Positions 1 through 13,612 of a stretch of 45,608 nt of DNA are shown piece after piece (positions within the stretch are counted from its first letter, which is position 1; each line of letters begins with the position of its first letter). The notes below the pieces were generated by a model. It made no database searches. It was not told the DNA's origin and saw only the letters and a list, made by a program, of their open reading frames with translations. The DNA comes from a virus: positions 1 through 45,608 of IMG/VR virus record IMGVR_UViG_3300013233_000552; one strand, 5' to 3'. The position numbers and the translations under genes are program-made.

Positions 1-947
1 CATTTTATGCGATCCGGCATTATGGGTACGAAGAGGTCGAATTATTTTGGAATTATGTGAGAACGAGAGGGAAGAAAGAGGCCATCCCCGTCAAGGTCAC
101 GGTTTCAAAAGACCATGTTGGCCACCAATTCCCCCCGCTTCTGGATGCTGCAAAAGAGATCGTTCAGATGGTGAGAACCGCAAAAACCCCCGATGAAGTG
201 GCCTGTAATCCAGACGGCTGCGGTGATTTCGGTGGGTGTCCCTATAAACAATTTTGCAATGTAGATCCGCTCGCTGCATTGTTTTCAAACCTAGAATCGA
301 GCGATTCAAAAACAAAAAAAGATGGAGATAAAATGTCGTTACTTGAAAAATTAAAAGCTGATGCCGCTGCCCGAAAAGCTAAAGGTGCTGCCTCCGTGAT
401 CGATGTACCCGTGGCCGATGTACCAAAAACAAAGAGCCCTTTGCTCGACCAGATCGCCAAGGCAAAGGGACTGGAAGCCAAAGAAGCTGTACAGCCTGAA
501 TTGGCAGCCCCCGTGGCCGTCCCCCGCCCGCCTGTGTCTAAGGCAGTAGAACCCACAATCTGTAATTTAGAAACCCTCTTAGAAGCCCAAAAAGAAATAA
601 AGGGTGGGAAACTAAAAGCCCCCAAAACCACGGTAAAAGGGGTGCGGGATGAGCTGCATGCTTTTATGGCTTCACAAGCAAGCTTAAAAGCTGAGGTTGA
701 GGAGCTCAAAGACCACGTGGCGGATTTGCTCTTGCGCCCGTTACCTGCGGGTTGTGCCCCCGTGAACCCCGTTCAAAATGTGCAGAGCCTTGCAGAAGCG
801 ATGGATGTATTGGCCTTGGCTCAAGACTTGTTCAATTCACTGAGCGTATCTCTCGAACCCGCCCTTGCTTTGAATCCCGATTTGGGTGGTAAGATGGAGC
901 GATTGGGCGTTAATCTAGCCCAAGTAAATTCTCTGTTGAGCGAGTAA
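1..947 (+). CDS. Cys-cluster nuclease (PD-(D/E)XK/Cas4-like), C-terminal part; 5' end outside window
   Basis: The frame is open from the first bases of the window, so this is the tail of a longer gene; the GTG at 57 is only the first possible start in view. Counted from that GTG, four cysteines at about residues 50, 55, 61 and 67 (C-x4-C-x5-C-x5-C) resemble the C-terminal iron-sulfur cysteine cluster of Cas4/AddB-type exonucleases, which process DNA ends. The catalytic core would lie before base 1, so the family is inferred. After the cluster comes an Ala/Lys/Pro-rich region with two similar amphipathic segments (about 94-110 and 124-138) and a helical C-terminus. An in-frame ATG at 333 is preceded by GGAG and could give a separate shorter protein. 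The stop is three bases before the helicase start. Confidence 0.6.
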   Translation, partial: FYAIRHYGYEEVELFWNYVRTRGKKEAIPVKVTVSKDHVGHQFPPLLDAAKEIVQMVRTAKTPDEVACNPDGCGDFGGCPYKQFCNVDPLAALFSNLESSDSKTKKDGDKMSLLEKLKADAAARKAKGAASVIDVPVADVPKTKSPLLDQIAKAKGLEAKEAVQPELAAPVAVPRPPVSKAVEPTICNLETLLEAQKEIKGGKLKAPKTTVKGVRDELHAFMASQASLKAEVEELKDHVADLLLRPLPAGCAPVNPVQNVQSLAEAMDVLALAQDLFNSLSVSLEPALALNPDLGGKMERLGVNLAQVNSLLSE

Positions 948-950
948 AAA

Positions 951-2645
951 ATGAGCGTATTTAGAGGCATGCCTAACGCCCCCAGCCCAAAGATGGGGAT
1001 TGTGAGAACGTCAGAGTTTAGGCGTGTTTCTGCTCTGCCTAGACGGGTTTTGGGGGAATCTGATGATGTCTTGGTTGATGCTGTCACGGATTTCTTCAAA
1101 ACCCCGTGGGGAAATATGCGATTGCGCCCAATCCAAGCCCAAGCGATAAAAGAAGCGGCTGAATTGGGCGGGCTTTTCGCCCCGATTGGTGTCGGCCACG
1201 GCAAAACCTTGGTGTCATTACTTTTGCCAGAGGCGATGCAGGCACAACGCCCCCTGCTTTTAATCCCTGCGAATCTGAGAGATAAAACCATAAATCATGA
1301 CATTCCTGATCTGGAAATCCATTGGCGGTTGCATCCCAATTTAAAAATAATGTCGTACTCTCAGATTTCAACGGTGAATGGGGCGAATTCTTTGCTTGAC
1401 ATGATGCCCGATCTAATAATCTTGGATGAGGCGCATAAGCTGAAAAATCATGATGCTGCCCGCACCAAACGATTTTTACGATATTTTGACGCTTTTCCCG
1501 AAACCCGTTTGTGTGCGATGAGCGGATCGATGACCAAAAGATCAATCTTGGATTACGCTCATTTGAGCCGATTGGCCTTGAAAGAAAGATCTCCTTTGCC
1601 CAAAACCTGGCATGAGCTGCGGGATTGGTCGTGCGCTTTGGATTCTGATGTACCGCCAGAGATGAGGAAACCAGCGGGGGCGATGGCGGATTGGTGCGAT
1701 ACCAAAAGAGGCCGTGTGGATCTCTCAGATTTGCGCAAAGGCTTCAAAAATCGACTTTGTGAAACCCCTGGGGTTATCACATCTAAAAAATCAGCGGTGG
1801 AGTGCGGGCTTATTTTAACAGAAAAGAAGGTCAAAAAAATACCCGAAAAAATAGAAGATGCTTTTCAGCTTTTGCGGGAAAGATGGATAACGCCAGGGGG
1901 TGAAGAAATATCCGATGCCTTGAGTTTGTGGCGTCATTCAAGCGAGTTGGCATGTGGTTTTTACTACCGTTGGAATCCAATGCCCCCGAGGGGGTGGCTG
2001 GATGCGAGGGCGGAATGGCATCGGTTTGTGAGGCACAAAATACAGTATTCAAAAGGAAAATATGACACGATGGGGCAGGTGGCGCTTGAGATACAGAGGG
2101 GGATGTCATCGCCACAATATGACCATTGGAAAGAGATTGAACCCACTTTTGAGCCGAATACGGAGGCGGTTTGGGTGGATGATTTCTTGGTAAAAGAGGC
2201 TGAGAAATGGGCTTTAAAAGAGCAGGGGATCGTTTGGGTTGCCCATCGGGCGGTTGGCGAGCGCTTTAATGAAAATGGTAGAATACCCTATTTTGGGGCG
2301 GGCGATGATGCTGCTTTGCTGGCACACAAAGGGGCGTGCGCTGCTTCAATCGCTGCCCACGGCACGGGTAAGAACTTGCAGGCATGGAGCCGTGGGCTCT
2401 TACTTGTCCCCCCCGCATCGGGGGATACGTTCGAGCAACTGTTGGGGCGGTTTCATCGACCAGGGCAAGCGGCTGACGATGTGTGTTTTGATGTGTGTTT
2501 GCATACAAAAGAGCTTTTCGATGGCTTTCTAAAAGCGCAAAGGGATGCGGTTTATATCCAAGAATCCACGGGGCTAGAGCAGAAACTGAATTTGGCCACG
2601 ATCAAGATCGAGGATGAAAGAGGGGAAAACACCTTTTTATTTTAA
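951..2645 (+). CDS. SNF2/DEAH-type superfamily 2 DNA helicase
   Basis: This is an ATP-driven DNA translocase/helicase of 564 residues, expected to remodel or unwind phage DNA during replication or recombination. Visible motifs are a Walker A loop GVGHGKT (80-86), DEAH (159-162), SGS motif III (191-193) and motif VI QLLGRFHRPGQ (496-506). The last is typical of phage SNF2-like helicases. The order and spacing fit a two-lobe SF2 enzyme. It starts three bases after the nuclease-like gene stops, so the two are probably co-translated. It is followed by a promoter rather than a visible terminator. Confidence 0.88.
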   Translation: MSVFRGMPNAPSPKMGIVRTSEFRRVSALPRRVLGESDDVLVDAVTDFFKTPWGNMRLRPIQAQAIKEAAELGGLFAPIGVGHGKTLVSLLLPEAMQAQRPLLLIPANLRDKTINHDIPDLEIHWRLHPNLKIMSYSQISTVNGANSLLDMMPDLIILDEAHKLKNHDAARTKRFLRYFDAFPETRLCAMSGSMTKRSILDYAHLSRLALKERSPLPKTWHELRDWSCALDSDVPPEMRKPAGAMADWCDTKRGRVDLSDLRKGFKNRLCETPGVITSKKSAVECGLILTEKKVKKIPEKIEDAFQLLRERWITPGGEEISDALSLWRHSSELACGFYYRWNPMPPRGWLDARAEWHRFVRHKIQYSKGKYDTMGQVALEIQRGMSSPQYDHWKEIEPTFEPNTEAVWVDDFLVKEAEKWALKEQGIVWVAHRAVGERFNENGRIPYFGAGDDAALLAHKGACAASIAAHGTGKNLQAWSRGLLLVPPASGDTFEQLLGRFHRPGQAADDVCFDVCLHTKELFDGFLKAQRDAVYIQESTGLEQKLNLATIKIEDERGENTFLF

Positions 2646-2672
2646 AAAAGTGAAAAAAGATGGTTTATATAA

Positions 2673-2701
2673 TTGACGCGTTGTTTTATATATAATACAA
2701 G
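2673..2701 (+). promoter_or_regulatory. Promoter, copy 1 of a repeated cassette
   Basis: TTGACG at 2673-2678, a 17-base spacer, then TACAAG at 2696-2701 (TATAAT at 2691-2696 is an overlapping alternative -10). The surrounding sequence from about 2654 (A-rich, then GATGGTTTATATA) matches the region around 5646 closely and that around 9667 more loosely. It is a sigma70-like promoter for the 2747 gene and the primase-helicase. Confidence 0.75.
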
Positions 2702-2718
2702 AAACAAACAATAAAACA

Positions 2719-2731
2719 GCTCGGAGAGAGC
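2719..2731 (+). promoter_or_regulatory. Start-proximal leader hairpin, copy 1
   Basis: GCTC (2719-2722), loop GGAGA, GAGC (2728-2731). The 3' foot is followed by AGAAAAGAG, the likely ribosome binding site, and there are exactly 15 bases before the ATG at 2747. Equivalent hairpins with a different stem sequence precede the genes at 5724, 6117 and 9746. Confidence 0.6.
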
Positions 2732-2746
2732 AGAAAAGAGAGAAAA

Positions 2747-3265
2747 ATGTACGCTTTATTTACAAAAGACTGCCAATTGGGAATCCAGGCAGATGCAGAT
2801 GTTAGATCTGTTTTGCGGGCAAATGGGTGGGACTTTCACGGTGATCATTGGGAGATCGCCCAAACGCAAACCCGTTCATTGAGGCAAGCAATTTCGGAAA
2901 CGGCTGAGGAGCTGCGATTCTTGGGGCATGTGTGTGTTGTGCCCGCTGATTATGACAAATCCCCCGTGGGTGATGCTTTACCTGCGGAGAGTGAGAGTGA
3001 GAATGTGATTTATGAAGTGAACGGCCTCTTGTCATTGCATTTCGCTGAATCGGCCGAGGTGTTCAACGCTGTGAAGTCTTTGGGGAAATGGGATGAGGTA
3101 TTGAAGAAGAGGTTGATCGACCCGATCCAGTCCTTGCAGCTCTTGGAGCTGGCGCACACTTTCGATTTCATCTTCTCAGAAGAAGCCGCTTCTCTTGTCA
3201 GAAAAGCCCTTGAGGGGCTGGATGTGTCCGAGATCCCTGCTATTTTGAGGGATCAAGTCAAATGA
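2747..3265 (+). CDS. Hypothetical protein, first gene of a promoter cassette
   Basis: I do not recognise a family in this 172-residue protein. It is soluble and acidic, with no membrane segment and a predominantly helical C-terminal half. The start is fixed by the purine-rich ribosome binding site AAAAGAGAG and the leader hairpin. Its last codon overlaps the primase-helicase start (ATGA at 3262), so translation of the two is probably coupled. That context suggests a replication accessory role (for example a loader or modulator of the primase-helicase), but this is inference only. Confidence 0.8.
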   Translation: MYALFTKDCQLGIQADADVRSVLRANGWDFHGDHWEIAQTQTRSLRQAISETAEELRFLGHVCVVPADYDKSPVGDALPAESESENVIYEVNGLLSLHFAESAEVFNAVKSLGKWDEVLKKRLIDPIQSLQLLELAHTFDFIFSEEAASLVRKALEGLDVSEIPAILRDQVK

Positions 3266-5595
3266 AAATATCGCTTCTAAAAGACACTTTTGACACCCAC
3301 CCCTTTTTGACCGAGGTTTCTTGGCCGATTGACTTTGGAGATCCCCAAATTGTCGAGGAAAAAAAGCATATTAGGGCGTTTAGCCCTTGTGAATTTGACG
3401 GCGGGGGCAAGTTTCTTGCGAATGCCATACAAGCCCATTTATCTGTTTTTGATGTAGATCACGCCTCCGAATTGGATATGGCTGACATTGTAAATCGGTG
3501 CTCTTCAAAAGATCTTGCGTTTATGATTTACACATCGTTTAACCACAACCCCCCCGATGACCACCGCTTTAGGGTGCTTGTGCAAACAGATCGACCCATT
3601 GGCCGAGACGAATATGCCCTTTTCTGGCAAAAGGCAAACAATAAATTGATGGGGGGGCGGGGGGATCCCGCTTGTAAAGATATCTCACGTATTTATTATT
3701 TACCCGCCCACCGGCCAGGGGGCACTTGTGAAGTGCTTGATTTTGAGGGCAGCCCTTTATCCGTGGATTGGGTGCTTTCTTTGCCCGATGCGGCAGAAAA
3801 ACCCATTGAATTGGAGGACATAAAAGAGCTGGCTGCTGAGATGAAAAGAGCAAAAAGTGAATTTAAAAAAGAGCTTTCAAAAACAATGACAAAAGCCCTA
3901 AAGGGTCTCGCTTTCGCTAATCAGGGCGAGCGAGACACTACCTGTTTTAAATTGGCTTGCGTGCTTGCTGAAAGATGGCCAACGCAAGATGCGGGGCATC
4001 TGGCTTCATTTTTCGCTGTAGCGATGGGGGCGATGGCCGCCCAGGGTTCAAAAATGGATTTGGATGGCTTGATTGCAAAAATCGAGAGGCAGCAAGGCGA
4101 TGAACAAAACAAAATAGCTGAAGAGAAGAGAATTGAGCTTGAGGAACGCCAAAAAAAGATCAAGATCGCTTTTCGGGGCAAAAGAAGCCATCCATATTCT
4201 GATGCTGAATTGGCCGCCTTTGGGGATTTGGATAACAAGTGGATTGTGCGAAAGGGTGATTCTTTTTACTTTTTTCTTGACGGGGCTTATACTGGCCCGT
4301 TCCAAAAAACTGAGATGAGGAACGCCACCCAAATCGAATTGGCTGCATCCCCTTTGGAAATGACAGAGCCTGACGAAAAGGGGAACGAGCGGTTTTTGTC
4401 AACAGATGAATTGGTTGATCGATATGGCACGGTGGCATTAAATGTGGCGGTTGATTTGCGTGCTCAAAAATCTTGGTATGATGCAGATGATCGGGTAATT
4501 TATGAAGCCCCCTGCCCCTTGCGTGATCTTGAGCCTGTTTTTGATCCCGTCATTGACGAATGGCTGGAATCGCTGGGCGGCCAGCAATTGAAAGAGTGGG
4601 TTGGATTCTGCGCAAATGTGGGGCATCCCCTGGTCGCTCTGTATATTGAGGGTGCCCCGCAAAGTGGGAAATCATTGCTTGCCCAAGGGCTTTCACGGCT
4701 TTGGACAGTTAACGGGCCGACCGATTTGTCCCATGCGATGGGGCATTTTAATGGGGATATTCTGCAATGCCCCCTGGCCTTGGCTGATGAAGACGTGCCT
4801 GCGGTGATTAAAAAGGAAAAATCCACGGGGGCTTTGCGGGATTTTATTCAAAAAAGAACCCGCCCCCTTTCCCGTAAATTCTTAAATAACTCCCAAATGC
4901 TGGGATGCACCCGTCTGATTTTGGCAGCAAATAATAAAGATCTGATAACGACAAACGAAAACTTGACGCAAAACGATATTGCTGCCATTGCCAGCCGCTT
5001 TTTATATGTGCATGCAGGGTTTGAATCCCGTGATTTTTTGGAAAAAATAGGTGGGGCATCTTTTATAAATAAACACTGGATTGAGGGGGATGCTATTGCA
5101 AAACACGCCCTTTATCTGCGGGAAAACATACCCCCCGCTGACGGCAGAGGCCGCTTTTACATTGAAACCGATGTTTCTGCGCTTACCCAAGCCCTGACAA
5201 GCTCAAGCGGTTTCAGGGGCGAGATTTGCAATTGGTTATTTTCTTATTTGAAAGATCCCCGCCAGATGGAATCCAAGGGGTCGATGGGGTGCGAGATATG
5301 TGTGCAAAAAGGCAATTTATATGTAGGCACAAAAACATTGATTGACTTTTGGGATGTTTATTTGAAAACTAGACCACCCCAAAAAGTGGATTATCTGGTC
5401 AAATCTTTGGGCGGCCTTGGTCGCAAAGATGAGATTTATATTGAGGGGGCGGATAAACCGAGCCGAGTTTGGCGCATTGATATCCCCACTTTGGATTTAT
5501 GGGCGCAAGATGCGAATATGGGATCTGTGCTGGAGCTCTTGGGGCGTGGGGTTGTAAAAGAGTGCGAAAATGAGGACGGCGATCTGCCTTTTTAA
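3262..5595 (+). CDS. Primase-helicase: AEP-like primase domain plus SF3-like helicase
   Basis: This 777-residue protein is the likely replicative primase and helicase. The N-terminal third has the layout of an archaeo-eukaryotic primase: the metal-binding pair FDVDH (D64, D66), a DDHRFRV segment with H101, and KDISRIYYLPAH (about 139-150). A charged helical linker (about 185-305) follows. The C-terminal ATPase has Walker A GAPQSGKS (464-471), acidic Walker B LALADED (505-511) and a sensor-like RLILAANN (551-558), as in the D5/DUF5906-type helicases fused to phage and plasmid primases. The start overlaps the previous stop by four bases. A G7CG6 run at about 3651-3664 lies within the frame without disrupting it. 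Confidence 0.85.
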   Translation: MKISLLKDTFDTHPFLTEVSWPIDFGDPQIVEEKKHIRAFSPCEFDGGGKFLANAIQAHLSVFDVDHASELDMADIVNRCSSKDLAFMIYTSFNHNPPDDHRFRVLVQTDRPIGRDEYALFWQKANNKLMGGRGDPACKDISRIYYLPAHRPGGTCEVLDFEGSPLSVDWVLSLPDAAEKPIELEDIKELAAEMKRAKSEFKKELSKTMTKALKGLAFANQGERDTTCFKLACVLAERWPTQDAGHLASFFAVAMGAMAAQGSKMDLDGLIAKIERQQGDEQNKIAEEKRIELEERQKKIKIAFRGKRSHPYSDAELAAFGDLDNKWIVRKGDSFYFFLDGAYTGPFQKTEMRNATQIELAASPLEMTEPDEKGNERFLSTDELVDRYGTVALNVAVDLRAQKSWYDADDRVIYEAPCPLRDLEPVFDPVIDEWLESLGGQQLKEWVGFCANVGHPLVALYIEGAPQSGKSLLAQGLSRLWTVNGPTDLSHAMGHFNGDILQCPLALADEDVPAVIKKEKSTGALRDFIQKRTRPLSRKFLNNSQMLGCTRLILAANNKDLITTNENLTQNDIAAIASRFLYVHAGFESRDFLEKIGGASFINKHWIEGDAIAKHALYLRENIPPADGRGRFYIETDVSALTQALTSSSGFRGEICNWLFSYLKDPRQMESKGSMGCEICVQKGNLYVGTKTLIDFWDVYLKTRPPQKVDYLVKSLGGLGRKDEIYIEGADKPSRVWRIDIPTLDLWAQDANMGSVLELLGRGVVKECENEDGDLPF

Positions 5596-5645
5596 ATTTA
5601 AAATGAAAAAAGGGAAGAAAAAAGTAAAAAAGATGGTTTATATAG

Positions 5646-5674
5646 TTGACACGTTGTTTTATATATGTTACAAT
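5646..5674 (+). promoter_or_regulatory. Promoter, copy 2 of the repeated cassette
   Basis: TTGACA at 5646-5651, a 17-base spacer, TACAAT at 5669-5674. From about 5630 to 5674 it is nearly identical to copy 1, including GATGGTTTATATA before the -35 and GTTGTTTTATATAT in the spacer. It drives the 5724 gene and possibly the ssDNA-binding-like gene. Confidence 0.8.
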
Positions 5675-5680
5675 GAATCA

Positions 5681-5707
5681 AGGCAATAAAGCCTGAGCCG
5701 AAGAGGC
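5681..5707 (+). promoter_or_regulatory. Start-proximal leader hairpin, copy 2, with alternative pairing
   Basis: The conserved hairpin is GCC (5697-5699), loop GAAGA, GGC (5705-5707), followed by AGAAAAGAG and 16 bases before the ATG at 5724. In this copy an upstream AGGC (5681-5684) can pair with GCCT (5691-5694), and that GCCT can alternatively pair with AGGC at 5704-5707. Two exclusive folds are therefore possible. Confidence 0.55.
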
Positions 5708-5723
5708 AGAAAAGAGAAATGAA

Positions 5724-5993
5724 ATGTTAGTAAGAATCAAAACACCTAAAGGCCTTTTTCAAGTAGCTGTCGATCTCCTTTCTGCTTCTGCAGAAGGGGA
5801 TCTTGTACGCTATTCTTTCCGCATGTATCATGCGGCTATGGAAGGCAGTAAAGACGCCCCTTATTTTGATTATAGCATGGGTCTCTATATTCAAACCCCC
5901 GTATCCCTGCAGGATGCTCTTGTTGAGCGTCTTTCAGAATACCTTTGCTCTGAAGGTTTGGGGGATGCCGAGGCCGTGCACTTTTTTTCTTAA
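5724..5993 (+). CDS. Hypothetical small protein, cassette gene 2
   Basis: An 89-residue soluble acidic protein of unknown family. The start at 5724 is chosen over the ATG at 5719, which is in another frame and reads no useful protein, because the AAAAGAG ribosome site and the leader hairpin sit at the same distance as in the other cassette genes. It has its own strong promoter and stands between the replication helicase and the ssDNA-binding-like gene, so it is probably made early. No function can be assigned. Confidence 0.75.
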   Translation: MLVRIKTPKGLFQVAVDLLSASAEGDLVRYSFRMYHAAMEGSKDAPYFDYSMGLYIQTPVSLQDALVERLSEYLCSEGLGDAEAVHFFS

Positions 5994-5997
5994 AATA

Positions 5998-6047
5998 GGC
6001 CTAAGCCGATCCATCCGTGTCGGGGTATAAAATAACGGATTCAGGCC
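5998..6047 (+). promoter_or_regulatory. Nested stem structure in the intergenic leader of the 6117 gene
   Basis: GGCCT (5998-6002) can pair with AGGCC (6043-6047), and inside it ATCCGT (6013-6018) pairs perfectly with ACGGAT (6035-6040) around a 16-base loop. The 123-base gap holds no open frame. It could be a structured leader or a processing site; no known riboswitch consensus is recognised. Confidence 0.4.
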
Positions 6048-6055
6048 ATTGATTT

Positions 6056-6077
6056 GCAGGGTTGGCCGCCTGCTTTT
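6056..6077 (+). terminator. Weak terminator or attenuator-like hairpin
   Basis: GCAGG (6056-6060) pairs with CCTGC (6069-6073), followed directly by TTTT. The stem is only five base pairs and the T run is short, so termination would be partial. It lies between the 5724 gene and the ssDNA-binding-like gene and could set their relative expression. Confidence 0.4.
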
Positions 6078-6090
6078 AACAAGAACAAAA

Positions 6091-6101
6091 GCCGAATAGG
6101 C
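6091..6101 (+). promoter_or_regulatory. Start-proximal leader hairpin, copy 3
   Basis: GCC (6091-6093), loop GAATA, GGC (6099-6101), then AGAAAAGAG and 15 bases before the ATG at 6117. It occurs here without an adjacent copy of the repeated promoter, so the hairpin is associated with the start codon and not simply with the promoter. Confidence 0.55.
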
Positions 6102-6116
6102 AGAAAAGAGAACAAA

Positions 6117-6557
6117 ATGAGTTTAGCAAGTATTTTTGATAGCCCTGAATTCAAAGAAGCCAAATCCTCAAAGGGTGGGAATTATTGGAAGGCAGGCATC
6201 CATGAGGCCACGATTCTGAGCGTTCAGCTTAACGAGGTACGGGCAGGCACCGCATTCATCGTTGAGTGCTCTGTGACCTCCTCAAACCCCGCAGAGGGCA
6301 CTGCCCCTCATAACGTGGGCGAAACGGTGGGTTGGATCACTTTGGATAATAAAGAGAAAGCCCTTTTCTTTGGGGACATAAAAGGTTTCGTGGGTGGGGT
6401 GCTCGAAGTGCCCGAGCACGAGATTGGCCGTGAAGAGATCGAATACATCACGGGCGAAGACCAGCCTTTGGTCGGAAAAGCCATCCGTGTTGAAGCGGTC
6501 ATGGTGAAGACCAAAAGAGGCAACGATTTCACCAAAATCAGATTTGCCGCCCTTTAA
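6117..6557 (+). CDS. Putative single-stranded-DNA-binding protein (DUF669-like)
   Basis: A 146-residue protein beginning MSLASIFDSP. The ATG at 6117 is chosen over an in-frame upstream codon at 6054 because the AAAAGAG ribosome site and leader hairpin sit just before 6117. Its sequence is a run of predicted beta strands with a G-x-Y/H-x-A-T-I start (HEATILSV), consistent with the OB-fold-like ssDNA-binding phage proteins grouped under DUF669. The acidic tail of classical SSB is absent. Its position between primase-helicase and DNA polymerase supports a replication role. A strong terminator follows directly. The family call is tentative. Confidence 0.6.
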   Translation: MSLASIFDSPEFKEAKSSKGGNYWKAGIHEATILSVQLNEVRAGTAFIVECSVTSSNPAEGTAPHNVGETVGWITLDNKEKALFFGDIKGFVGGVLEVPEHEIGREEIEYITGEDQPLVGKAIRVEAVMVKTKRGNDFTKIRFAAL

Positions 6558-6571
6558 GAAAACTTTTAACT

Positions 6572-6601
6572 GCCCACCTCTTTTTAGGGGTGGGCTTTTT
6601 T
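6572..6601 (+). terminator. Strong rho-independent terminator
   Basis: Nine base pairs (6572-6580 with 6587-6595, one T-G wobble), loop TTTTTA, then six Ts (6596-6601). It lies between the ssDNA-binding-like gene and the DNA polymerase gene, only nine bases before the polymerase ATG. Confidence 0.9.
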
Positions 6602-6610
6602 GGCCTAAAA

Positions 6611-8524
6611 ATGAGAATCCCCCAAAAAAGAATCACTTTTGATACTGAAACAGCCCTGATTTCGGATGAAAACCCGATCCCGATGCTCACCTGTTTGAGC
6701 TGGTGTGTTGATGGTAAAAGCTGGGGATTGGTTGACCATGCCGAGGCTTGCTCTTTATTCATCGGCTGGCTGCTGGATGATGACGTTTATCTGGTCGGCC
6801 ACAATATCGCTTTTGATGTTCAAGTGATGGTTTTTGAGATTCAGAATCGTTTTACGTTGTCTTTGCTTTGGGCAGATCGGATCTGGGGCTTGGTTTTTGC
6901 AAAATACGATAAAAACCTGATTTTAGACACCCTTTTGATTGAGAAAATAAAAGCCATCGAGACGGGCAAATTGACAAAAAGTGGCCAACAAATGTACAGA
7001 GGAGCTGCATTTAAATTCTCTTTGGCTGCCTGTTTTAAGAAACACACGGGCGAGGACTTGGAGGGCAAATCAACTGTGCGATTGGGCTACGGCAAATTGA
7101 GGGGTGTACCTCTTGATCAATGGTCTGAACTCGAACGTGCTTATGCTTTGAATGACGCCTTGGCCACTGACCACATTTACCAATTAAACTGCCCTGATGG
7201 TTATGAGAATCCCTATCTTTGGGCGGCAACCGCCCGTGGTGCTCTTGGTCTGCATATCACGTCAACAAATGGATTTGCGGTTGATGGAGATGCTTTAAAA
7301 ATACTGGATGAAGAGATCACAACCCTGTATTTGAATTTACAGAAAGAGATCTTAGCCCACGGGTTTTTGAAGAAAACAAAGAAAAAAGGCCTGCCTCATT
7401 TATCCCGTGATCTGAAAAAAATAAAAGCCGCTGTTTCCCAAGCATTTGGTGGGAATCCGCCTCTAACAGACAAAGGCGGGGTGAAAACGGATGCGGAAAC
7501 CCTAAAAATAGCTTCTGAAAAATCCCCTGCTTTGGCCAAAGTGTCAGAGTATGTGAGCCTTGAGAAACTCAAATCGACTTATATTGAAGCCCTGAAAAAA
7601 GGGGTTGATTTTGATATTCATGCCTATTTCAATCCCTTGGTGGGTACTTATCGCACAAGCTGTGGCCGCCCGAACCTGCAAAATATGCCCCGAAAAGAGG
7701 GAATCCGACAATGTTTTGTGCCACGGGATGGGTTTATCTTTTGCTCTTGCGATTATGACACGTTGGAGTTGCGCACTTTGGCACAGGCTTGCATTGACCT
7801 TGTGGGCTTCTCTAAAATGGGGGATGCCCAGAACGAGGGGATCGATCCCCATTTACAGATGGCCGCTCAAGTTTTGCAGATTGATTATTCTGAGGCGCTT
7901 TTGATGAAGAAAAAGGGAGATCCTAAAATTAAAGAAGCCCGCCAATTGGCCAAGGCTGCAAATTTTGGATACCCTGGGGGGGCGGGTGCTGAGTCTTTTC
8001 GTAAAATAGCGAAAAACTATGGAATTGAGATGACCAAAAACCAGGCGCAGGATTTAAAACAGACTTGGTTTAATGCGTGGCCTGAGATGAAATTGTATTT
8101 TGATCATGTTGGTGTGGTCTGCCAAAGCGGCAGCGGCTTCCCCACGATTGAACGGGTGGGGGCTACCCGTGGGGATGTGTTCTTCACTGAAGCATGCAAT
8201 TTCTATTTTCAGGGGCTGGCTGCAATTGGGGCAAAAGAGGCTCTTTATCAAGTTGTGCAGGCGTGTTTGTCTGAAGAAAGCATTTTGTTTGGGTGTAAAG
8301 TTGTGAATTTTATTCATGATGAGGTCATTGTCGAGGTGCCCGAGGCGGCTAAAGAGGCGGATGCTTGCGCCCGTGAAATTAGCCGAATAATGTGTGACGA
8401 GATGCAGAAACTTGTGCCAGATGTTAAAATCGGCGCTGCCCCTGCTTTAATGCTGCGGTGGGAAAAAGGTGCTGAACCTGTTTTTAATGATGAGGGGCTC
8501 TTGATCCCTTGGGAAAGTATGTAG
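6611..8524 (+). CDS. Family A DNA polymerase with 3'-5' exonuclease domain
   Basis: The replicative polymerase, 637 residues from ATG 6611. The N-terminal proofreading domain has exo I FDTET (D11, E13), exo II GHNIAFD (63-69) and exo III YALND (178-182). The polymerase domain has motif A DYDTLELR (381-388), the O-helix R444-x3-K448-x3-F452 followed by GYPGG, and motif C HDE (569-571). Compared with E. coli Pol I, the position of O-helix Tyr766 is a glycine here. No 5' nuclease domain is present, as is usual in phages. A GTG at 6590 could extend the frame but lies inside the terminator hairpin. The ATG has no clear ribosome binding site, and no promoter is seen between terminator and gene, so read-through may limit expression. 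Confidence 0.93.
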   Translation: MRIPQKRITFDTETALISDENPIPMLTCLSWCVDGKSWGLVDHAEACSLFIGWLLDDDVYLVGHNIAFDVQVMVFEIQNRFTLSLLWADRIWGLVFAKYDKNLILDTLLIEKIKAIETGKLTKSGQQMYRGAAFKFSLAACFKKHTGEDLEGKSTVRLGYGKLRGVPLDQWSELERAYALNDALATDHIYQLNCPDGYENPYLWAATARGALGLHITSTNGFAVDGDALKILDEEITTLYLNLQKEILAHGFLKKTKKKGLPHLSRDLKKIKAAVSQAFGGNPPLTDKGGVKTDAETLKIASEKSPALAKVSEYVSLEKLKSTYIEALKKGVDFDIHAYFNPLVGTYRTSCGRPNLQNMPRKEGIRQCFVPRDGFIFCSCDYDTLELRTLAQACIDLVGFSKMGDAQNEGIDPHLQMAAQVLQIDYSEALLMKKKGDPKIKEARQLAKAANFGYPGGAGAESFRKIAKNYGIEMTKNQAQDLKQTWFNAWPEMKLYFDHVGVVCQSGSGFPTIERVGATRGDVFFTEACNFYFQGLAAIGAKEALYQVVQACLSEESILFGCKVVNFIHDEVIVEVPEAAKEADACAREISRIMCDEMQKLVPDVKIGAAPALMLRWEKGAEPVFNDEGLLIPWESM

Positions 8525-8527
8525 AGA

Positions 8528-9109
8528 ATGGAAAATCTTAAACAACATTTTGGCAAATACGACATCATTTATATTGATCCCCCGTGGTCTTATACAAATA
8601 ATAGTAAAAACTCGAATAATAAGGGGGCGGCAGATCATTATGACTTAATGACAGATGCTGATATTAAGGCCATGCCCATTAAAGACCTGTTTCAAGATCC
8701 CAAAAAAGGCGCTTGTTTTGTTTGGGCGACATGCCCGAAGCTAGACCTCGCCATTCATGCCATAGAATCATGGGGATTGCATTATCGTGGCATTGCTCAA
8801 GTTTGGGTAAAAACACGTAAGGATGGCGGAATCATAGGGGCTCAGGGTGTGCCACCAACGGCTGTGAAACCAACAACTGAGCTTCTTTTGCTTGCAACAA
8901 CATGTAAACGTGGGAGGCCTTTTAAACTGCTTTCGTCTAAAATACCGCAAGTGCTTTTACATCCAAGAGGTGGTCATTCTGAGAAGCCCGCTTGTGTGAG
9001 AGATACGATTGTTGAAATTTATGGAGACAGGCCGCGGATTGAGATGTTTTGCCGCCACAATCCTGAAGGATGGGCAGCGTGGGGTAATCAGGTGGGTAAA
9101 TTATGCTAA
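8528..9109 (+). CDS. MT-A70-type adenine-N6 DNA methyltransferase
   Basis: A 193-residue methyltransferase of the MT-A70 type, which transfers a methyl group from S-adenosylmethionine to adenine N6. The catalytic DPPW is at 17-20 in the strand context IIYIDPPWSY. It is followed by the CFVWATCPKLD and HPRGGHSEKP segments typical of phage and plasmid members. It is short and has no visible target-recognition domain. It starts four bases after the polymerase stop and overlaps the RuvC-like gene by seven bases. A role in protecting phage DNA from host restriction is likely but inferred. Confidence 0.88.
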   Translation: MENLKQHFGKYDIIYIDPPWSYTNNSKNSNNKGAADHYDLMTDADIKAMPIKDLFQDPKKGACFVWATCPKLDLAIHAIESWGLHYRGIAQVWVKTRKDGGIIGAQGVPPTAVKPTTELLLLATTCKRGRPFKLLSSKIPQVLLHPRGGHSEKPACVRDTIVEIYGDRPRIEMFCRHNPEGWAAWGNQVGKLC

Positions 9110-9627
9110 AAAAAACCTGTGCGAAACCACGTTTTATAATCGGGTTTGATCCCGCCCTGAATGATGCGGGATGGGCTTTGCTGGAGGATGGCCTATTCAC
9201 AGATGGGGGGATTTTGCGGGGTAAGAAAAGCCAAAACCTTTTTGATCGGGCTTTTAGTGTGCCGCCTCCCCCCCTCCCCCAAGGCACATATGTGTTTTCA
9301 AAGGAGACGGGGCAGATGCCGATTGGTCTTTTCGTGGGCGAGGTGATGGCCATTTACCGCCAAGGCAAAGGCGATCCAAACAAATTGATCCCGCTGATCG
9401 GGGTGACGTTCCAAATTGCCGCCAAGATCAATGCTGACCTCAATTACTTCCCCACGCCCCGAGAATGGAAGGGAAACGTGCCGAAAGAGATCCATAACGA
9501 TCGGGTTTTGTCCAAATTGTCGAGTAAAGAGCGTTTTTCTTTGTCCCAATTGGGCGTACCAAGGGGGAAATTACACAATGTGATCGATGCCGTTGGCTTG
9601 GCAAAGTGGGGCTGGGAGCGGTTTTAA
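9103..9627 (+). CDS. RuvC-like Holliday junction resolvase
   Basis: A 174-residue RNase H-fold nuclease. FIIGFDPALNDAGWALLEDG (11-30) matches the first RuvC strand pair with catalytic D16. A mid-protein glutamate (E80, in GLFVGEVMAIY) and the C-terminal HNVIDAVGLAKWG helix with D162 complete a RuvC-like acidic set. It would cut branched replication or recombination intermediates before packaging. It overlaps the methyltransferase end. A proline run (about 54-59) is an unusual insertion. The next 118 bases contain the third promoter cassette. Confidence 0.8.
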   Translation: MLKKTCAKPRFIIGFDPALNDAGWALLEDGLFTDGGILRGKKSQNLFDRAFSVPPPPLPQGTYVFSKETGQMPIGLFVGEVMAIYRQGKGDPNKLIPLIGVTFQIAAKINADLNYFPTPREWKGNVPKEIHNDRVLSKLSSKERFSLSQLGVPRGKLHNVIDAVGLAKWGWERF

Positions 9628-9666
9628 AATTAAATTGAAAAAAAGTGAAAAAAGCGACTTATATAG

Positions 9667-9695
9667 TTGACAGGGTGTTTCATATATGTTACAAT
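9667..9695 (+). promoter_or_regulatory. Promoter, copy 3 of the repeated cassette
   Basis: TTGACA at 9667-9672, a 17-base spacer containing CATATATGT, TACAAT at 9690-9695. It is preceded by the same A-rich GTGAAAAAAG block as copy 1. It starts the accessory operon at 9746. Confidence 0.8.
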
Positions 9696-9719
9696 GATTA
9701 AAGAGGTAATAACGCCCCC

Positions 9720-9730
9720 GCCGAAGAGGC
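9720..9730 (+). promoter_or_regulatory. Start-proximal leader hairpin, copy 4
   Basis: GCC (9720-9722), loop GAAGA, GGC (9728-9730), 15 bases before the ATG at 9746. The ribosome site here is TTGGAG, unlike the AAAAGAG of copies 1-3, while hairpin and spacing are kept. Confidence 0.55.
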
Positions 9731-9745
9731 AGATTGGAGATCATT

Positions 9746-10111
9746 ATGACCAACATCAACATCACAAGATCCGATTTCGACTTTGCTTATATGGGCGAAG
9801 TCGAGTCTGATGAGATCGCACTGGCAAAGATACGGCCAGATCCTCGAAGTGATGAGATTGGCTATTGGGTCGATCTCCTCACTTCAGGGGATCGAAAGGC
9901 CCACAACCTCAAAGGCCATAAAAAGGCCTTTGTCCGCAAGATCTTCTGGTGTCTTATATCTCGCCTTGGGGCTTATCAAGAGGCAGGGTTTCTTGACAAT
10001 GAGGGCATCGATGATGCCATCGCTTACCTTGCTGACGCCTTCGGCATTTATTGCCAAGGCACAAAAGGCTCTATTTCAAGAGTCAAAGCTAAGGCAAAAG
10101 CTAAATCATAA
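9746..10111 (+). CDS. Hypothetical protein, cassette gene 3
   Basis: A 121-residue protein of unknown family, with acidic N-terminus and a lysine/alanine-rich C-terminal tail (KAKAKAKS). The ATG at 9746 is chosen over an upstream TTG at 9734 because GGAG lies seven bases before it. The central part (WVDLLTSGDRKAH, KAFVRKIFWCLISRL) looks globular and helical. It heads the accessory operon behind promoter copy 3, so it is likely an early, abundant product. No function is assigned. Confidence 0.78.
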   Translation: MTNINITRSDFDFAYMGEVESDEIALAKIRPDPRSDEIGYWVDLLTSGDRKAHNLKGHKKAFVRKIFWCLISRLGAYQEAGFLDNEGIDDAIAYLADAFGIYCQGTKGSISRVKAKAKAKS

Positions 10112-10157
10112 ACCACTTTCGCCCTGAGCATGGCCGTAAACTGCTTGTTTTTTAACC

Positions 10158-10170
10158 GCCCACAGAGGGC
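10158..10170 (+). promoter_or_regulatory. Leader hairpin, divergent copy 5
   Basis: GCCC (10158-10161), loop ACAGA, GGGC (10167-10170), 21 bases before the ATG at 10192. The stem is four base pairs of different sequence and the loop is again five bases. Spacing to the start is longer than in the other copies, so its membership is less certain. Confidence 0.4.
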
Positions 10171-10191
10171 ACACTTGAAGGGATATATATT

Positions 10192-10485
10192 ATGAGAAAA
10201 TTAAGTAAATTCGCAAGAAAAGCAGTCATTAAAGATATCAAAGAGGCCAGGTCTAAAGAGATTAAGGCTGAAAAGGTGGGCTGTGTGTTTTCTGACTACA
10301 GAAGAACCCCCTACATGGGATATCGATACAACAATTGGAGAACTGGATCGAAGCAATCGAAATCCAAGCAGGATGGGCAATGGCCGCAAAGGTTCACGAA
10401 TTGCCAACGCCTACCTATTTCAGTGAGGAATTTGTTAAATCTCGCTCAAGTGGTTTTATTGATGGCCAAGCTGAATACCTCCTGA
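10192..10485 (+). CDS. Small basic protein; C-terminal half probably frameshifted
   Basis: The frame reads 97 residues, with GAAGG as ribosome site. Residues 1-45 are lysine-rich and protein-like; beyond about residue 45 the composition looks like an out-of-frame reading, while the -1 frame becomes protein-like (see 10335-10538). A run of five Cs at 10307-10311 sits at the transition. Either this is a short gene overlapping the next, or one gene is split by a frameshift. No family is recognised. Confidence 0.45.
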   Translation: MRKLSKFARKAVIKDIKEARSKEIKAEKVGCVFSDYRRTPYMGYRYNNWRTGSKQSKSKQDGQWPQRFTNCQRLPISVRNLLNLAQVVLLMAKLNTS

Positions 10486-10538
10486 AAACCCTAAAAACCG
10501 CAATTGAAGTAAATTACCCCGAAAAGAAAGTGAGCTAA
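10335..10538 (+). CDS. Small hypothetical protein, possible second half of the 10192 gene
   Basis: 67 residues from TTG 10335 (the frame is open from 10296 with no ATG), with a credible helical sequence ending EVNYPEKKVS. The stop is one base before the next gene's ATG, which fits a real operon gene. No good ribosome site precedes the TTG. A -1 shift on the C run at 10307-10311 would join it to the 10192 frame and give one protein of about 115 residues ending at 10538. Confidence 0.5.
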   Translation: MENWIEAIEIQAGWAMAAKVHELPTPTYFSEEFVKSRSSGFIDGQAEYLLKTLKTAIEVNYPEKKVS

Positions 10539-10539
10539 A

Positions 10540-11181
10540 ATGCTTAAAAACAACCCCAGAGAAACCCACGCTAAAGATCTGGAAAACGCCCAGATCTTGG
10601 TTAAAGATTCTGGGGATTACCTGGAGGCCATCAAAGAGATGGTCATTGAGAGTGATCCCGAGTACGACTTTGCTTCACAGGTTTTACGTGAAGTGAAAAC
10701 CAAGACCAAAGAAACCAAGGCCATGAAGGATTCGGCCACCAAACCACTGAAACAAGTGGCCAAAACCATTGACGGGTGGTTTAAGCCTGCCCTTGATGCG
10801 ATGAAGGAAGCGGAGGCGGTGATAAAGCGGGGCATGTCGGATTACTTGGTTTTGAAAGAACGAAATCGAGTAAAAGCCATGCAAGAGGCTCAAGCTTTGA
10901 TCGAAGCTGCCAAGAAAACCCCTGCCCCTGAAGCCAAGGAAGCCGCAAAAGAGGCCGCCCGTGATTTGATCGTGGGCTCCCAATCGGATGCCGCATCTGA
11001 AGGCATTTCACAAATCGAGGTTTGGGGTTTTGAGATTATGGATGCTTCCCTTTTGCCTCGTGAATACCTGATGCCCAATGAGGCGGCCATCAAGGCGATG
11101 GTGAAGCTGCAGAAGCAGGATACCCAAATTGCAGGGGTAAAAGTGGTGAAATCCTTTCAAATCAGAGCGAGGACAAGATGA
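10540..11181 (+). CDS. Coiled-coil protein of phage recombination/replication modules
   Basis: 213 residues. The first 150 are almost entirely charged helix (coiled coil likely, about 50-150, with an Ala/Lys/Glu-rich stretch). The C-terminal part (VWGFEIMDASLLPREYLMPNE... IAGVKVVKSF) matches a short domain I recognise from unnamed phage proteins next to recombination genes, where it appears as PREYLMPDE-x-IxAxVK. Function is unknown; DNA- or nuclease-binding is a guess from context. It overlaps the next gene by four bases (ATGA at 11178). Confidence 0.75.
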   Translation: MLKNNPRETHAKDLENAQILVKDSGDYLEAIKEMVIESDPEYDFASQVLREVKTKTKETKAMKDSATKPLKQVAKTIDGWFKPALDAMKEAEAVIKRGMSDYLVLKERNRVKAMQEAQALIEAAKKTPAPEAKEAAKEAARDLIVGSQSDAASEGISQIEVWGFEIMDASLLPREYLMPNEAAIKAMVKLQKQDTQIAGVKVVKSFQIRARTR

Positions 11182-11408
11182 CAAACAGGATGACAAGATT
11201 GGAAAAATTAATCAGGGATCGGCTGGGGGTGCTGGATATGACGGTGCACGCCTTTTGCATAAAGGCCGAGATCCCCCGCACCACCCTTTATCGTGTTTTT
11301 AAAGCTGAGGGGCGGTATTCTATGCACACCCTTCAGCGTATTGCCAAGGCTTTGGGGTGCAAGATTGTGGTGCTTCTGGAGGCTGAGAAGGGCGGTTGTG
11401 ATGGCTGA
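11178..11408 (+). CDS. Small helix-turn-helix DNA-binding protein (Cro/XRE-like)
   Basis: 76 residues. The segment MTVHAFCIKAEIPRTTLYRVFKAEGRYSMHTLQRIAKALGCKI has the helix-turn-helix layout of the XRE/Cro class, with the recognition helix around RTTLYRVFK. It is a candidate transcriptional regulator of the phage. It is the only such regulator seen and could act on the repeated promoters or the late promoter, but no operator can be proven. It is translationally coupled to both neighbours. Confidence 0.75.
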   Translation: MTNRMTRLEKLIRDRLGVLDMTVHAFCIKAEIPRTTLYRVFKAEGRYSMHTLQRIAKALGCKIVVLLEAEKGGCDG

Positions 11409-11598
11409 AACGATGTGTTTCTGGTTCAAAGATGGCCGCAAGGTTTTCAAACGTGGCCGCAATTACTTTTTATACGATCCAAGCCTCAAAGAGGCGCAAT
11501 ACCGAGGTGTTTCTTTGGGCGAGATGGCCAAATTGGAACGTGAGGTTCAAGATGAAATGGTTGAGGATTTAAAGAAAGGTGTGAGGGTGCGGAAATGA
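11401..11598 (+). CDS. Hypothetical small protein
   Basis: 65 residues from ATG 11401, which overlaps the end of the HTH gene by eight bases. A longer upstream reading of the frame would only copy the HTH gene out of frame, so it is not used. It begins MAETMCFWFKDGRKVFKRG, is basic, and ends in a charged helix. No family is recognised. Confidence 0.65.
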   Translation: MAETMCFWFKDGRKVFKRGRNYFLYDPSLKEAQYRGVSLGEMAKLEREVQDEMVEDLKKGVRVRK

Positions 11599-11909
11599 AG
11601 GTAGTTGAGACTGGCGAGAGGGTCGATTTAAGTCTTTTCCACAGGCTTCACAAGTACCACCTCTTGAAAAAGCTTGCGCCTGATGTAATGGCAAGATCTG
11701 AATTTCACGTAAAAAACGGAGGCAGGTTGAGGGCAAACAATTACAGAAACACAAGGATTTATCTGTTTCAAGAGCTTATGGACGCTTTAATGCACTGCCA
11801 TAAATTAGAAATGGAGGGCCTTGCTGATGCGGATGACGAGTGCGTGTTTGAATCACTGTGCCAAATTGCGCTTTGTGTAAAGAATAAATTAGAAGGAGAT
11901 AAAGGGTGA
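11595..11909 (+). CDS. Hypothetical protein, paralog of the next gene
   Basis: 104 residues. Its helical core is clearly related to the following gene: LFQELMDALMHCHKLEME here against LMQELLDAMFYITQKEME there, then DDECVF against DDQCAF. Upstream, KLAPDVMARSEF matches ELALMVKARSDL. The ELMDA motif recalls the metal-binding helix of MazG-like nucleotide pyrophosphohydrolases, but the full acidic set is not visible in this copy. It overlaps both neighbours by four bases. It is probably a diverged duplicate. Confidence 0.7.
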   Translation: MKVVETGERVDLSLFHRLHKYHLLKKLAPDVMARSEFHVKNGGRLRANNYRNTRIYLFQELMDALMHCHKLEMEGLADADDECVFESLCQIALCVKNKLEGDKG

Positions 11910-12307
11910 ACAATGAAAAATTGATCGAGCTGACGGATCTCGATCGGCTGCTGGAGATCGCCACGATTAATCAACCACGCCCGACCAAAAATAACGCCCC
12001 TCCAGTTGATGAACGGCTGATTAGGACTCTCAAGGATAATCAATTGGATGAGCTGGCCTTGATGGTGAAGGCGAGGTCGGATTTGGGGCTTGATCGTTAT
12101 GGGGATCGCTTGAGGCCATTCAATGGGAGGGATGCCTTGGTTGATTTAATGCAAGAATTGCTTGATGCAATGTTTTATATAACACAAAAAGAGATGGAAT
12201 TTAAGGCAGAGGCTGGGGGCGATGGTGAGGATGACCAGTGCGCTTTTAGCCATATTTTACCCGTGTTGATGCGAATGTGTGAAGATTTAAGAAAGGCTAT
12301 GAAATGA
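11906..12307 (+). CDS. MazG-like nucleotide pyrophosphohydrolase-related protein (tentative)
   Basis: 133 residues. The central segment LDRYGDRLRPFNGRDALVDLMQELLDAMFY follows the pattern seen in phage MazG/dATP-dGTP pyrophosphohydrolase-like proteins (RYG-x-L, NGRD, D-x-x-x-ELLDA-x-x-Y), enzymes that hydrolyse (d)NTPs to monophosphates. With thyX, nrdJ and tdk downstream, a role in dNTP pool control is plausible. The N-terminal 50 residues are unassigned. It shares clear similarity with the preceding gene. Function is inferred from a short motif only. Confidence 0.6.
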   Translation: MNNEKLIELTDLDRLLEIATINQPRPTKNNAPPVDERLIRTLKDNQLDELALMVKARSDLGLDRYGDRLRPFNGRDALVDLMQELLDAMFYITQKEMEFKAEAGGDGEDDQCAFSHILPVLMRMCEDLRKAMK

Positions 12308-12507
12308 CAAAAAAAGAAGAAATAGAAGCGTTTATGGGGTGTCTCGGTGATCTACAAAAGGCGGCAGATGCTTTGGAAAAAACACCGATTTTAGAGGGCG
12401 ACACGTTGGCCTTAATTGATAACCAAATTAACTCAATTAGACGATCTCTTGATAATATAAGAATAATAAATAACGATCTAAAGGCATTCATGGAGTTGTT
12501 TAAATGA
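12304..12507 (+). CDS. Hypothetical small helical protein
   Basis: 67 residues, predicted all-helical and acidic, of unknown family. It overlaps its neighbours by four bases on both sides (ATGA at 12304 and 12504), a strong sign of a real co-translated gene. A/T content rises from here to about 15.3 kb compared with the replication genes, suggesting these accessory genes were acquired separately. Confidence 0.65.
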   Translation: MTKKEEIEAFMGCLGDLQKAADALEKTPILEGDTLALIDNQINSIRRSLDNIRIINNDLKAFMELFK

Positions 12508-12911
12508 AAACAAAAAATGATATTGAAAACAAGGTAAATGAGTTATTAAAACAATATGTTCAGCTTGATGATTTTCAGGAGATGTGTGGTAAAACAATAG
12601 ATTTTGTTGACCTAAAATATCTTGATGACGAAATGAAAATAGTGTTTTCTGATAACAGTTATTTAGTGCTGAAGGCAGTAGGGTACGATTGTGGCGGTGA
12701 GCTTATTGTTTCTGATGATAATATCGATGCAGATGACCTTGAGAAATTTGGTTTAATCTCTAGGGAAGAAAGAAACATATACTGTAGAACCATGAGCGAA
12801 AGAAAATCGAAAGAACGCAGAGAGCGTTATGAAAAAGGTCGCATTGAAAACATAAAAGCAACACTGATGATAGCAAAAAAAGAAGGCATAACCCTTGATG
12901 AAGGTGAGTAA
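12504..12911 (+). CDS. Hypothetical protein with basic C-terminal helix
   Basis: 135 residues. The first 90 are acidic and mixed in structure; the last 40 form a strongly charged helix (ERKSKERRERYEKGRIEN). No family is recognised. The start overlaps the preceding gene, and the next begins three bases after its stop. Confidence 0.68.
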   Translation: MKTKNDIENKVNELLKQYVQLDDFQEMCGKTIDFVDLKYLDDEMKIVFSDNSYLVLKAVGYDCGGELIVSDDNIDADDLEKFGLISREERNIYCRTMSERKSKERRERYEKGRIENIKATLMIAKKEGITLDEGE

Positions 12912-12914
12912 ATA

Positions 12915-13601
12915 ATGAGTAAAACAAACATGATGAGGTACTTTTTAGAGGATTACAGTAAGAAAGAGAAGGCGGATTCTTTGTCATATTTGATTGCTTA
13001 TTTACAAGATGAGGAAAATCGTTTTACTGGGTTGGAAGGTCATCTTGTTAGAAATCTAATCCCTCTTATTTCATCCGAAATCAAAAAAATGTTTAAAATC
13101 CCCAAAAAACCGAAAACACTTTTTGAGTGGCTGATGTGTGCTGTAAGTAAAGATGAAGATCGAGAAAACATAACATTTGCCCGCCAGTTTGATGAATATG
13201 CTGTGGCAACTGACGGGTCATGTTTGCACCAAGTTTATGGTGTTCTGCCTGAGTTTAAGGGTAAGAATGCTTTTAAAAGAGGTGTGCCGTTAGATGTTGA
13301 TTTATCTTATCCTGACGTTGAGAGCAGATTTTTATTGATGGGTGATGGTGTTGATTTTTCGACACTGAGCTTCAAGACACTTATTAAGCACGTTGATATC
13401 CCTTTAATGTCAGTGACCATTCAAGATAATCTGTTGACTTTTGATCCAAAAAAGATCATGCCCACCATTAACTTTTTAGAAAGCCAAGGTTGTCCATGTG
13501 TTGTGTCTATTGGCAAAAGCGGAACGTATCCACCGCTGGTTTTCAGCTTTCATGTTGATGGAATTGAGTGTAAATCTGTGGTCATGCAAAAGACCGCTTA
13601 G
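12915..13601 (+). CDS. Possible sliding-clamp-like (beta-clamp fold) protein
   Basis: 228 residues. The segment DEYAVATDGSCLHQVYG resembles the VATDGHRL strand of beta clamps. A YPDV motif follows (about 131-134), and the C-terminus (SVVMQKTA) recalls the IMPM-type end of clamp-like phage proteins that tether polymerases to DNA. It sits with DNA metabolism genes, but the similarity is short and the length is below a normal bacterial clamp (about 370 residues). Treat it as a hypothesis; otherwise it is an unknown protein. Confidence 0.5.
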   Translation: MSKTNMMRYFLEDYSKKEKADSLSYLIAYLQDEENRFTGLEGHLVRNLIPLISSEIKKMFKIPKKPKTLFEWLMCAVSKDEDRENITFARQFDEYAVATDGSCLHQVYGVLPEFKGKNAFKRGVPLDVDLSYPDVESRFLLMGDGVDFSTLSFKTLIKHVDIPLMSVTIQDNLLTFDPKKIMPTINFLESQGCPCVVSIGKSGTYPPLVFSFHVDGIECKSVVMQKTA

Positions 13602-13612
13602 GAGAATAAATA

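Follow-up and report, generated by a model that had tools for sequence, protein, structure and literature searches.

Four gene starts in the early region of a phage carry a small hairpin at a near-constant distance upstream of the ATG, and three of these hairpins lie in leaders that share one strong promoter. This common promoter argues that the element most likely belongs to an expression cassette used more than once, rather than to a new family of RNAs. All four hairpins are on the plus strand of the window (the whole 45,608-nt stretch of viral DNA that was analysed): hairpin A, GCTC-GGAGA-GAGC (2719..2731; 4 bp, -4.5 kcal/mol), ends 15 nt before the ATG at 2747; hairpin B, GCC-GAAGA-GGC (5697..5707; -3.3 kcal/mol), 16 nt before the ATG at 5724; hairpin D, GCC-GAATA-GGC (6091..6101), 15 nt before the ATG at 6117; and hairpin C, GCC-GAAGA-GGC (9720..9730), 15 nt before the ATG at 9746. 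Reading of the sequence together with a scan bears out the first-pass annotation in describing these as stems of 3-4 bp closing a 5-base loop at this distance. The fifth site that it listed, GCCC-ACAGA-GGGC (10158..10170, plus strand), lies 21 nt from the ATG at 10192 and has a loop unlike the others, so we do not treat it as a member. The product of the 10192 ORF is merely lysine/arginine-rich.

Closer inspection of the leaders reveals that the hairpins at 2719, 5697 and 9720 are inside three copies of a single promoter module, a feature overlooked in the earlier annotation. The modules, P1 (2645..2701), P2 (5618..5674) and P3 (9639..9695), all on the plus strand, are sigma-70-type direct repeats of ~65 nt (family D1) with 82-83% identity, P1 being 82% identical to the copy at 5618. 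P1 combines an A-rich upstream block with a -35 element TTGACG (2673-2678), a 17-nt spacer and a -10 element TACAAG (2696-2701); in P2 and P3 the -35 is TTGACA (5646-5651 and 9667-9672), the spacer again 17 nt, and the -10 TACAAT (5669-5674 and 9690-9695). The pattern TTGACR-N17-TACAA(T/G) occurs only at P1-P3 in the whole window and never in shuffles. Since they share one duplicated module, hairpins A, B and C are not independent copies. Hairpin D has no P1-P3-like promoter upstream, and the region preceding it shows no detectable homology to the modules (p = 0.49). The promoter-linked hairpins begin 17, 22 and 24 nt past the predicted -10 box and end 15-16 nt before the ATG, which supports the proposal of a shared element anchored on the start codon, as against the point where transcription begins. 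An extra hairpin, AGGC-AATAAA-GCCT (5681..5694, plus strand), lies where the P2 transcript is predicted to begin; P3 has kept it only in part, and P1 lacks it.

The reading we prefer, with about an even chance of being right, is that a single early-expression cassette has been duplicated in the phage and that its hairpin most likely acts in cis beside the ribosome site, insulating or stabilising the message and so raising expression. In a full cassette, a sigma-70 promoter that includes an A-rich upstream block would be followed by a short leader with the small hairpin and an A/G-rich ribosome site, and then by the ATG. P1-P3 would be full copies, one per early operon, each driving the first gene of that operon: a 172-aa gene (2747..3265, followed by a primase-helicase at 3262-5595), an 89-aa gene (5724..5993) and a 121-aa gene (9746..10111), all on the plus strand. 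A partial fourth copy, with hairpin and ribosome site only, would stand downstream of P2, ahead of a 146-aa gene (6117..6557, plus strand) that possibly encodes a single-strand DNA-binding protein, to judge from a weak match (phrog_743, E=0.15). Placed just upstream of the ribosome site, the hairpin may keep that site single-stranded, and it may slow decay from the 5' side, such that expression of these genes would go up. The repeats, the promoter-like sequences, the constant spacing to the ATG and a hairpin block better conserved than its flanks are seen directly, whereas the transcription starts, folding of the hairpin in vivo and the gain in expression are inferred. If D is read from P2 it is internal to the transcript, so protection of the 5' end provides no direct explanation for this copy. 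The small size of the hairpin (-3.3 to -4.5 kcal/mol) also counts against a function within the cassette. A functional hairpin would give the phage a compact leader part, portable and copied to boost or coordinate early genes.

The ribosome sites are AGAAAAGAGAGAAAA for A (2732..2746; 15 nt, purine-rich), AGAAAAGAGAAATGAA for B (5708..5723; 16 nt), AGAAAAGAGAACAAA for D (6102..6116; 15 nt) and the diverged AGATTGGAGATCATT for C (9731..9745; 15 nt), all on the plus strand. As first read from the sequence, AGAAAAGAG is present in three copies and AGATTGGAG stands in its place at 9720, where the hairpin is unchanged. The sites at A, B and D pair weakly with the anti-Shine-Dalgarno (anti-SD) sequence (-5.1, -3.1 and -3.5 kcal/mol respectively) and the one at C more strongly; an open, insulated ribosome site would be most helpful at the three weak sites. 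Comparison of the P2 and P3 leaders shows that the hairpin plus AGA is identical at 14/14 positions, against 62% in the preceding stretch and 43% in the following ribosome site, which indicates that the block itself has been kept. In leaders A and C the hairpin has a predicted probability of about 0.95-1, as it has in B for folds ending at the ATG, though in B it drops to 0.38 once coding sequence is included. Hairpin D is outcompeted by another stem in a local fold from 6060 (P = 0.04) and is regained in a longer fold of 140 nt. Whole-leader stability is unusual in B only.

The occurrence of this hairpin element before gene starts is not random. When each leader is dinucleotide-shuffled, 0.7-3.6% of the shuffles place a pentaloop hairpin with 3 bp or more at 15-16 nt. 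Across all 893 plus-strand ATGs, GC-rich pentaloop hairpins at 15-16 nt number 8, a total that a Markov null also reaches (mean 5.75, largest 12); four of the eight are on the 23 assigned likely gene starts (hypergeometric 2e-5), and treating the three near-identical copies as one brings that probability to about 0.009. Among 381 phage starts in fetched loci, small hairpins of a broad class show no enrichment at 12-19 nt before the start, and the narrow GC-rich pentaloop class shows a small excess at 12-15 nt, resting on about 7 genes.

The description of the hairpins as covarying was overstated, in that covariation across the sites has no support beyond one event. The stems of B, C and D are identical, with zero variable pairs, and so contain no covariation; aligned to them, A reads GC[T]CGGAGAG[A]GC, with a U-A pair inserted and one base of the loop changed. 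The compensatory changes at several pairs that characterise a structured RNA family are therefore absent from B, C and D and amount to the one inserted pair in A, and a search of Rfam with positions 1-18500 (E up to 5) returned no relevant match. The exact identity of the stems in three copies could come from recent copying, the RNA itself having no function, which counts against the cis-acting reading. It is conceivable, if on balance rather unlikely, that reuse is at the sequence level only, the 21-nt block GCCGAAGAGGCAGANNNGAGA being a copied ribosome-site segment whose pairing is incidental or functionless. The invariant stems fit such an account, as does the disfavoured local fold of hairpin D; simulated random changes toward A yield a stem with 3 bp or more in 30% of cases and a 4-bp stem with a pentaloop in 5%; and the block next to GAGA may be no more than an effective ribosome site. 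However, copy A is fully paired via a coordinated U-A insertion, its shuffle probability for a stem with 4 bp or more at this spacing being 0.0015, and in copy C the hairpin block is conserved better than the ribosome site. Should neither function nor binding hold, the leaders would be an instructive case of duplicated promoter leaders taken for a covarying RNA.

What can be said of the loops? GGAGA, GAAGA and GAATA all fit GNRNA, with both differences at N positions, and ACAGA of the rejected fifth site does not; the GAAGA of hairpins B and C is the loop of lambda nutL boxB. Membership of this loop class makes a phage RNA-binding protein possible, and the hairpins could be a putative site at which a phage or host protein coordinates early-gene translation, a T4-type operator with a boxB-like GNRNA loop. 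We regard this as improbable. N peptides recognise GNRA-like pentaloops (PMC12550061), and a similar position beside the RBS is seen in the operator of T4 gene 43, where a hairpin is joined with RBS sequence (PMC3014915), but the search for a binder gave no candidate, models of two leader-linked proteins being of low confidence, and a 3-bp stem is short for a specific site. Family searches likewise found no N-like match, and the early region has no clear arginine-rich N-like peptide. Likewise improbable is a boxB-type multi-gene translational operator, in which a putative phage protein would read the fixed-distance GNRNA pentaloop hairpins and jointly set translation of replication genes. Were a protein to bind, boxB-like RNA recognition would be linked to translation instead of antitermination. 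Antitermination itself, with boxB-like hairpins loading a complex for readthrough of terminators such as 6572-6595, is very unlikely. A strong intrinsic terminator (6572..6595, plus strand; z -4.1) does follow the 6117 gene, with no P1-P3-like promoter ahead of the DNA polymerase gene beyond it, and TGCTTTTAACAA upstream of hairpin D resembles boxA. Yet scans for rrn and lambda boxA upstream of the hairpin find no match in leaders A, B and C and a gapped resemblance before D only, where local folding pairs the boxA-like sequence with an arm of the hairpin itself. The shared pentaloop notwithstanding, the elements differ from lambda nut boxB in lacking boxA at 3/4 sites, in a stem of 3-4 bp instead of 5, and in being locked to the ATG, which is unexpected for a nut site. 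Least credible of all is a DNA-level operator for a phage repressor: 3/4 copies are just downstream of promoters, and the phage has a gene for a Cro/C1-type HTH protein (11178-11408), but copy D has no such promoter homology and the element is always in a single orientation, fixed to the ATG.

The phage carrying the four leaders is unclassified. Searches of phage records, viral contigs with five proteins and genome contigs found none that came nearer than about 36% in terminase (taken along its length) or capsid, and neither its DNA polymerase nor its primase has a match in eleven records among the related ones. The P1-P3 promoter pattern was found in no viral contig searched. The exact leader pattern matched in coding sequence only; a relaxed hairpin-RBS-ATG pattern gave two distinct gene-start sites in unrelated phages where about two are expected by chance (assuming contigs of 15 kb on average), and these are therefore not evidence.

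The earlier view that no described family has this form was too strong, for the Start-Associated Sequences of cluster K mycobacteriophages and the T7 gene 10 5' stem-loop are close analogues. The former (SAS/ESAS) are short, repeated, asymmetric elements with complementary ends, GGGNNNNNNNCCC, before the ATG of many non-structural genes (PMC3203893). The likeness is in a repeated element with complementary ends just ahead of phage gene starts; the 13-bp SAS, however, has the Shine-Dalgarno core within it and is 3-7 bp away from the start, whereas the hairpin described here precedes the Shine-Dalgarno region and is unrelated to the SAS in sequence. No 13-bp element of the GGGATAGGAGCCC type, 3-7 bp from the start with the SD inside, was found at the present sites, where both element and position differ. 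The T4/RB69 gene 43 operator combines RBS sequence with a hairpin that precedes the start codon of an early replication gene (PMC3014915). It serves a single gene, with a hairpin of 16-18 nt and a UAAC-type loop about 40 bases upstream, in contrast to the four genes and GNRNA loop seen here, which have no known binder.

The T7 gene 10 stem-loop stands at the 5' end of a transcript made by T7 polymerase. Upstream of the RBS in another bacterium, it raised reporter expression 1.5- to 3-fold and stabilised the mRNA (PMC6146998, PMC3831590). The shared trait is a small phage stem-loop upstream of the ribosome site, which in T7 boosts expression and mRNA level before other RBSs as well; the differences here are promoters of sigma-70 type, a smaller hairpin that keeps its distance to the ATG, and one copy that is operon-internal. 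If the hairpin is functional, the leader part would be comparable to the T7 gene 10 leader, in a phage whose close relatives, if any, escaped the searches. A stem-loop near the mRNA 5' end, as in T7 gene 10, fits A-C if their transcripts begin at the predicted +1, with D being internal.

The hairpins at 2719 (A), 5697 (B), 6091 (D) and 9720 (C), which precede the genes starting at 2747, 5724, 6117 and 9746, are as the first-pass annotation described them: a stem of 3-4 bp closes a five-base loop (GGAGA, GAAGA or GAATA), with 15, 16, 15 and 15 nt respectively between hairpin and ATG. Their stem energies range from -3.3 to -4.5 kcal/mol. A fifth proposed site, at 10158, has the loop ACAGA and lies 21 nt from its ATG at 10192, and was put aside. 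The 97-aa frame from that ATG seems to be prolonged in another frame (67 aa, 10335-10538), which suggests a frameshift or an assembly error within 10192-10538.

What the first pass missed is that hairpins A, B and C each lie directly downstream of a copy of one promoter module of about 65 bp (P1, 2645-2701; P2, 5618-5674; P3, 9639-9695). The copies are 82-83% identical to one another, so the three promoter-leader units are themselves copies of one another. Each comprises an A-rich block and TTATATA(A/G), conserved upstream of the -35 box, followed by the sigma-70-like TTGAC(A/G)-17 nt-TACAA(T/G). The window has three occurrences of this pattern and shuffled sequence none, two of the copies are the top sigma-70 matches within the first 18.5 kb, and the core pattern has no match in any viral contig searched. 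AATAA is present in all three leaders; in the P2 leader it falls within a second hairpin (AGGC-AATAAA-GCCT, 5681-5694), located where the transcript is predicted to begin, and the pairing of this hairpin survives only in part at P3 and not at all at P1. Upstream of hairpin D no homology to P1-P3 is detectable (p = 0.49), and this site has only the hairpin and ribosome site in common with the other three. The gap from -10 box to hairpin varies (17, 22 and 24 nt) while that from hairpin to ATG is constant at 15-16 nt, which, together with the promoterless copy D, ties the element to the start of translation, not transcription. The absence of indels is itself weak evidence of a spacing constraint, since the RBS segment is short.

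GC-rich pentaloop hairpins stand at that distance before 8 of the 893 plus-strand ATGs in the window, a count that a Markov null also reaches (mean 5.75, largest 12); a single such hairpin is, by itself, unremarkable. Four of the eight fall at the 23 gene starts that we assigned ourselves from open reading frames (probability 2e-5; treating the three near-identical copies as one raises it to about 0.009). Between leaders B and C the hairpin plus AGA is identical at 14/14 positions, against 62% identity before and 43% after, which points to some constraint on the block, or to its being recent. That a good ribosome-site segment has merely been copied seems to us possible but rather unlikely.

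The hairpin had also been called covarying, which barely holds: no pair varies among the three GCC/GGC copies, leaving one inserted U-A pair at 2719. When a covariance model made from those copies is run over the window, 2719 ranks directly after them, at a weak E = 0.021; chance hits with imperfect pairing reach 0.032 and 0.058. The model's alignment of 2719 contains that single insertion and one loop change. When two insertions and one substitution were placed at random in a simulation, a 4-bp stem with a pentaloop resulted in 5% of cases, and at least three outer pairs survived in 30%. A single event of such strength is no more than suggestive.

Folded from the predicted transcript start up to the ATG, leaders A, B and C have a predicted hairpin probability of about 1; with some 37 coding bases added, the predicted values are 0.95-0.97 for A and C and 0.38 for B. 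Hairpin D is predicted at 0.04 in a local fold, where its own arm is taken up by the pairing of GCUUUU with AAAAGC; a longer context of 140 nt restores it in the predicted fold. The stretch 5997-6060, which separates the 5724 gene from hairpin D, holds long complementary segments, folds no more stably than shuffles, and is a possible processing site.

With belief and doubt about evenly balanced, we favour a cis-acting leader part reused on early genes, in which a small hairpin would adjoin an open A/G-rich ribosome site; that the hairpin forms in cells, and that it has an effect there, we infer. The ribosome sites at A, B and D pair weakly with the anti-SD, and the one at C more strongly. The gene 10 stem-loop of T7 is the nearest tested precedent for such a leader: put in front of an RBS, it increased expression (PMC3831590, PMC6146998). 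The T4 gene 43 operator likewise combines RBS sequence and a hairpin upstream of it (PMC3014915), although at a single gene only. The earlier statement that no described family has this form needs narrowing, since elements of this general kind are already known: in cluster K mycobacteriophages, Start-Associated Sequences recur directly before early starts and have ends complementary to each other (PMC3203893). Their sequence and position are different, however, and so is where the Shine-Dalgarno sequence lies.

A candidate site for an RNA-binding protein is a fair alternative, given that all the loops fit GNRNA; GAAGA is the loop of lambda nutL. Such pentaloops can adopt a fold resembling that of a GNRA tetraloop and are bound by N peptides of lambdoid phages (PMC12550061). 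Three of the four sites have no boxA-like sequence, so the name nut site is not warranted. A strong intrinsic terminator (6572-6595; z -4.1) separates the 6117 gene from the DNA polymerase gene, and this interval has no P1-P3-like promoter, so polymerase supply must come from readthrough or a weak promoter. For an antitermination reading this terminator is worth noting, but its role could just as well be to restrict expression of the polymerase.

No near relatives of this phage were found in the collections searched, which may leave such relatives out. External pattern matches fell at two distinct sites, the number expected by chance: one sequence common to L095 (3908-3936) and L097 (4151-4179), and one in L096 (6555-6583), with GCCGAATAGGC or GCCGAGGAGGC directly before the RBS in these unrelated phages.

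The 45,608-bp window is the complete virus record, with rightward early genes in 1-18 kb and late genes leftward. The early genes encode a helicase, primase-helicase, family A DNA polymerase, MT-A70 methyltransferase, thymidylate synthase, ribonucleotide reductase and thymidine kinase, with a weak RuvC-like match among them; a small Cro/C1-type helix-turn-helix protein of the early operon (11178-11408) is a candidate repressor. Near the right end, a minus-strand tRNA-Met (CAT) at 45392-45468 might be a clue to the host.
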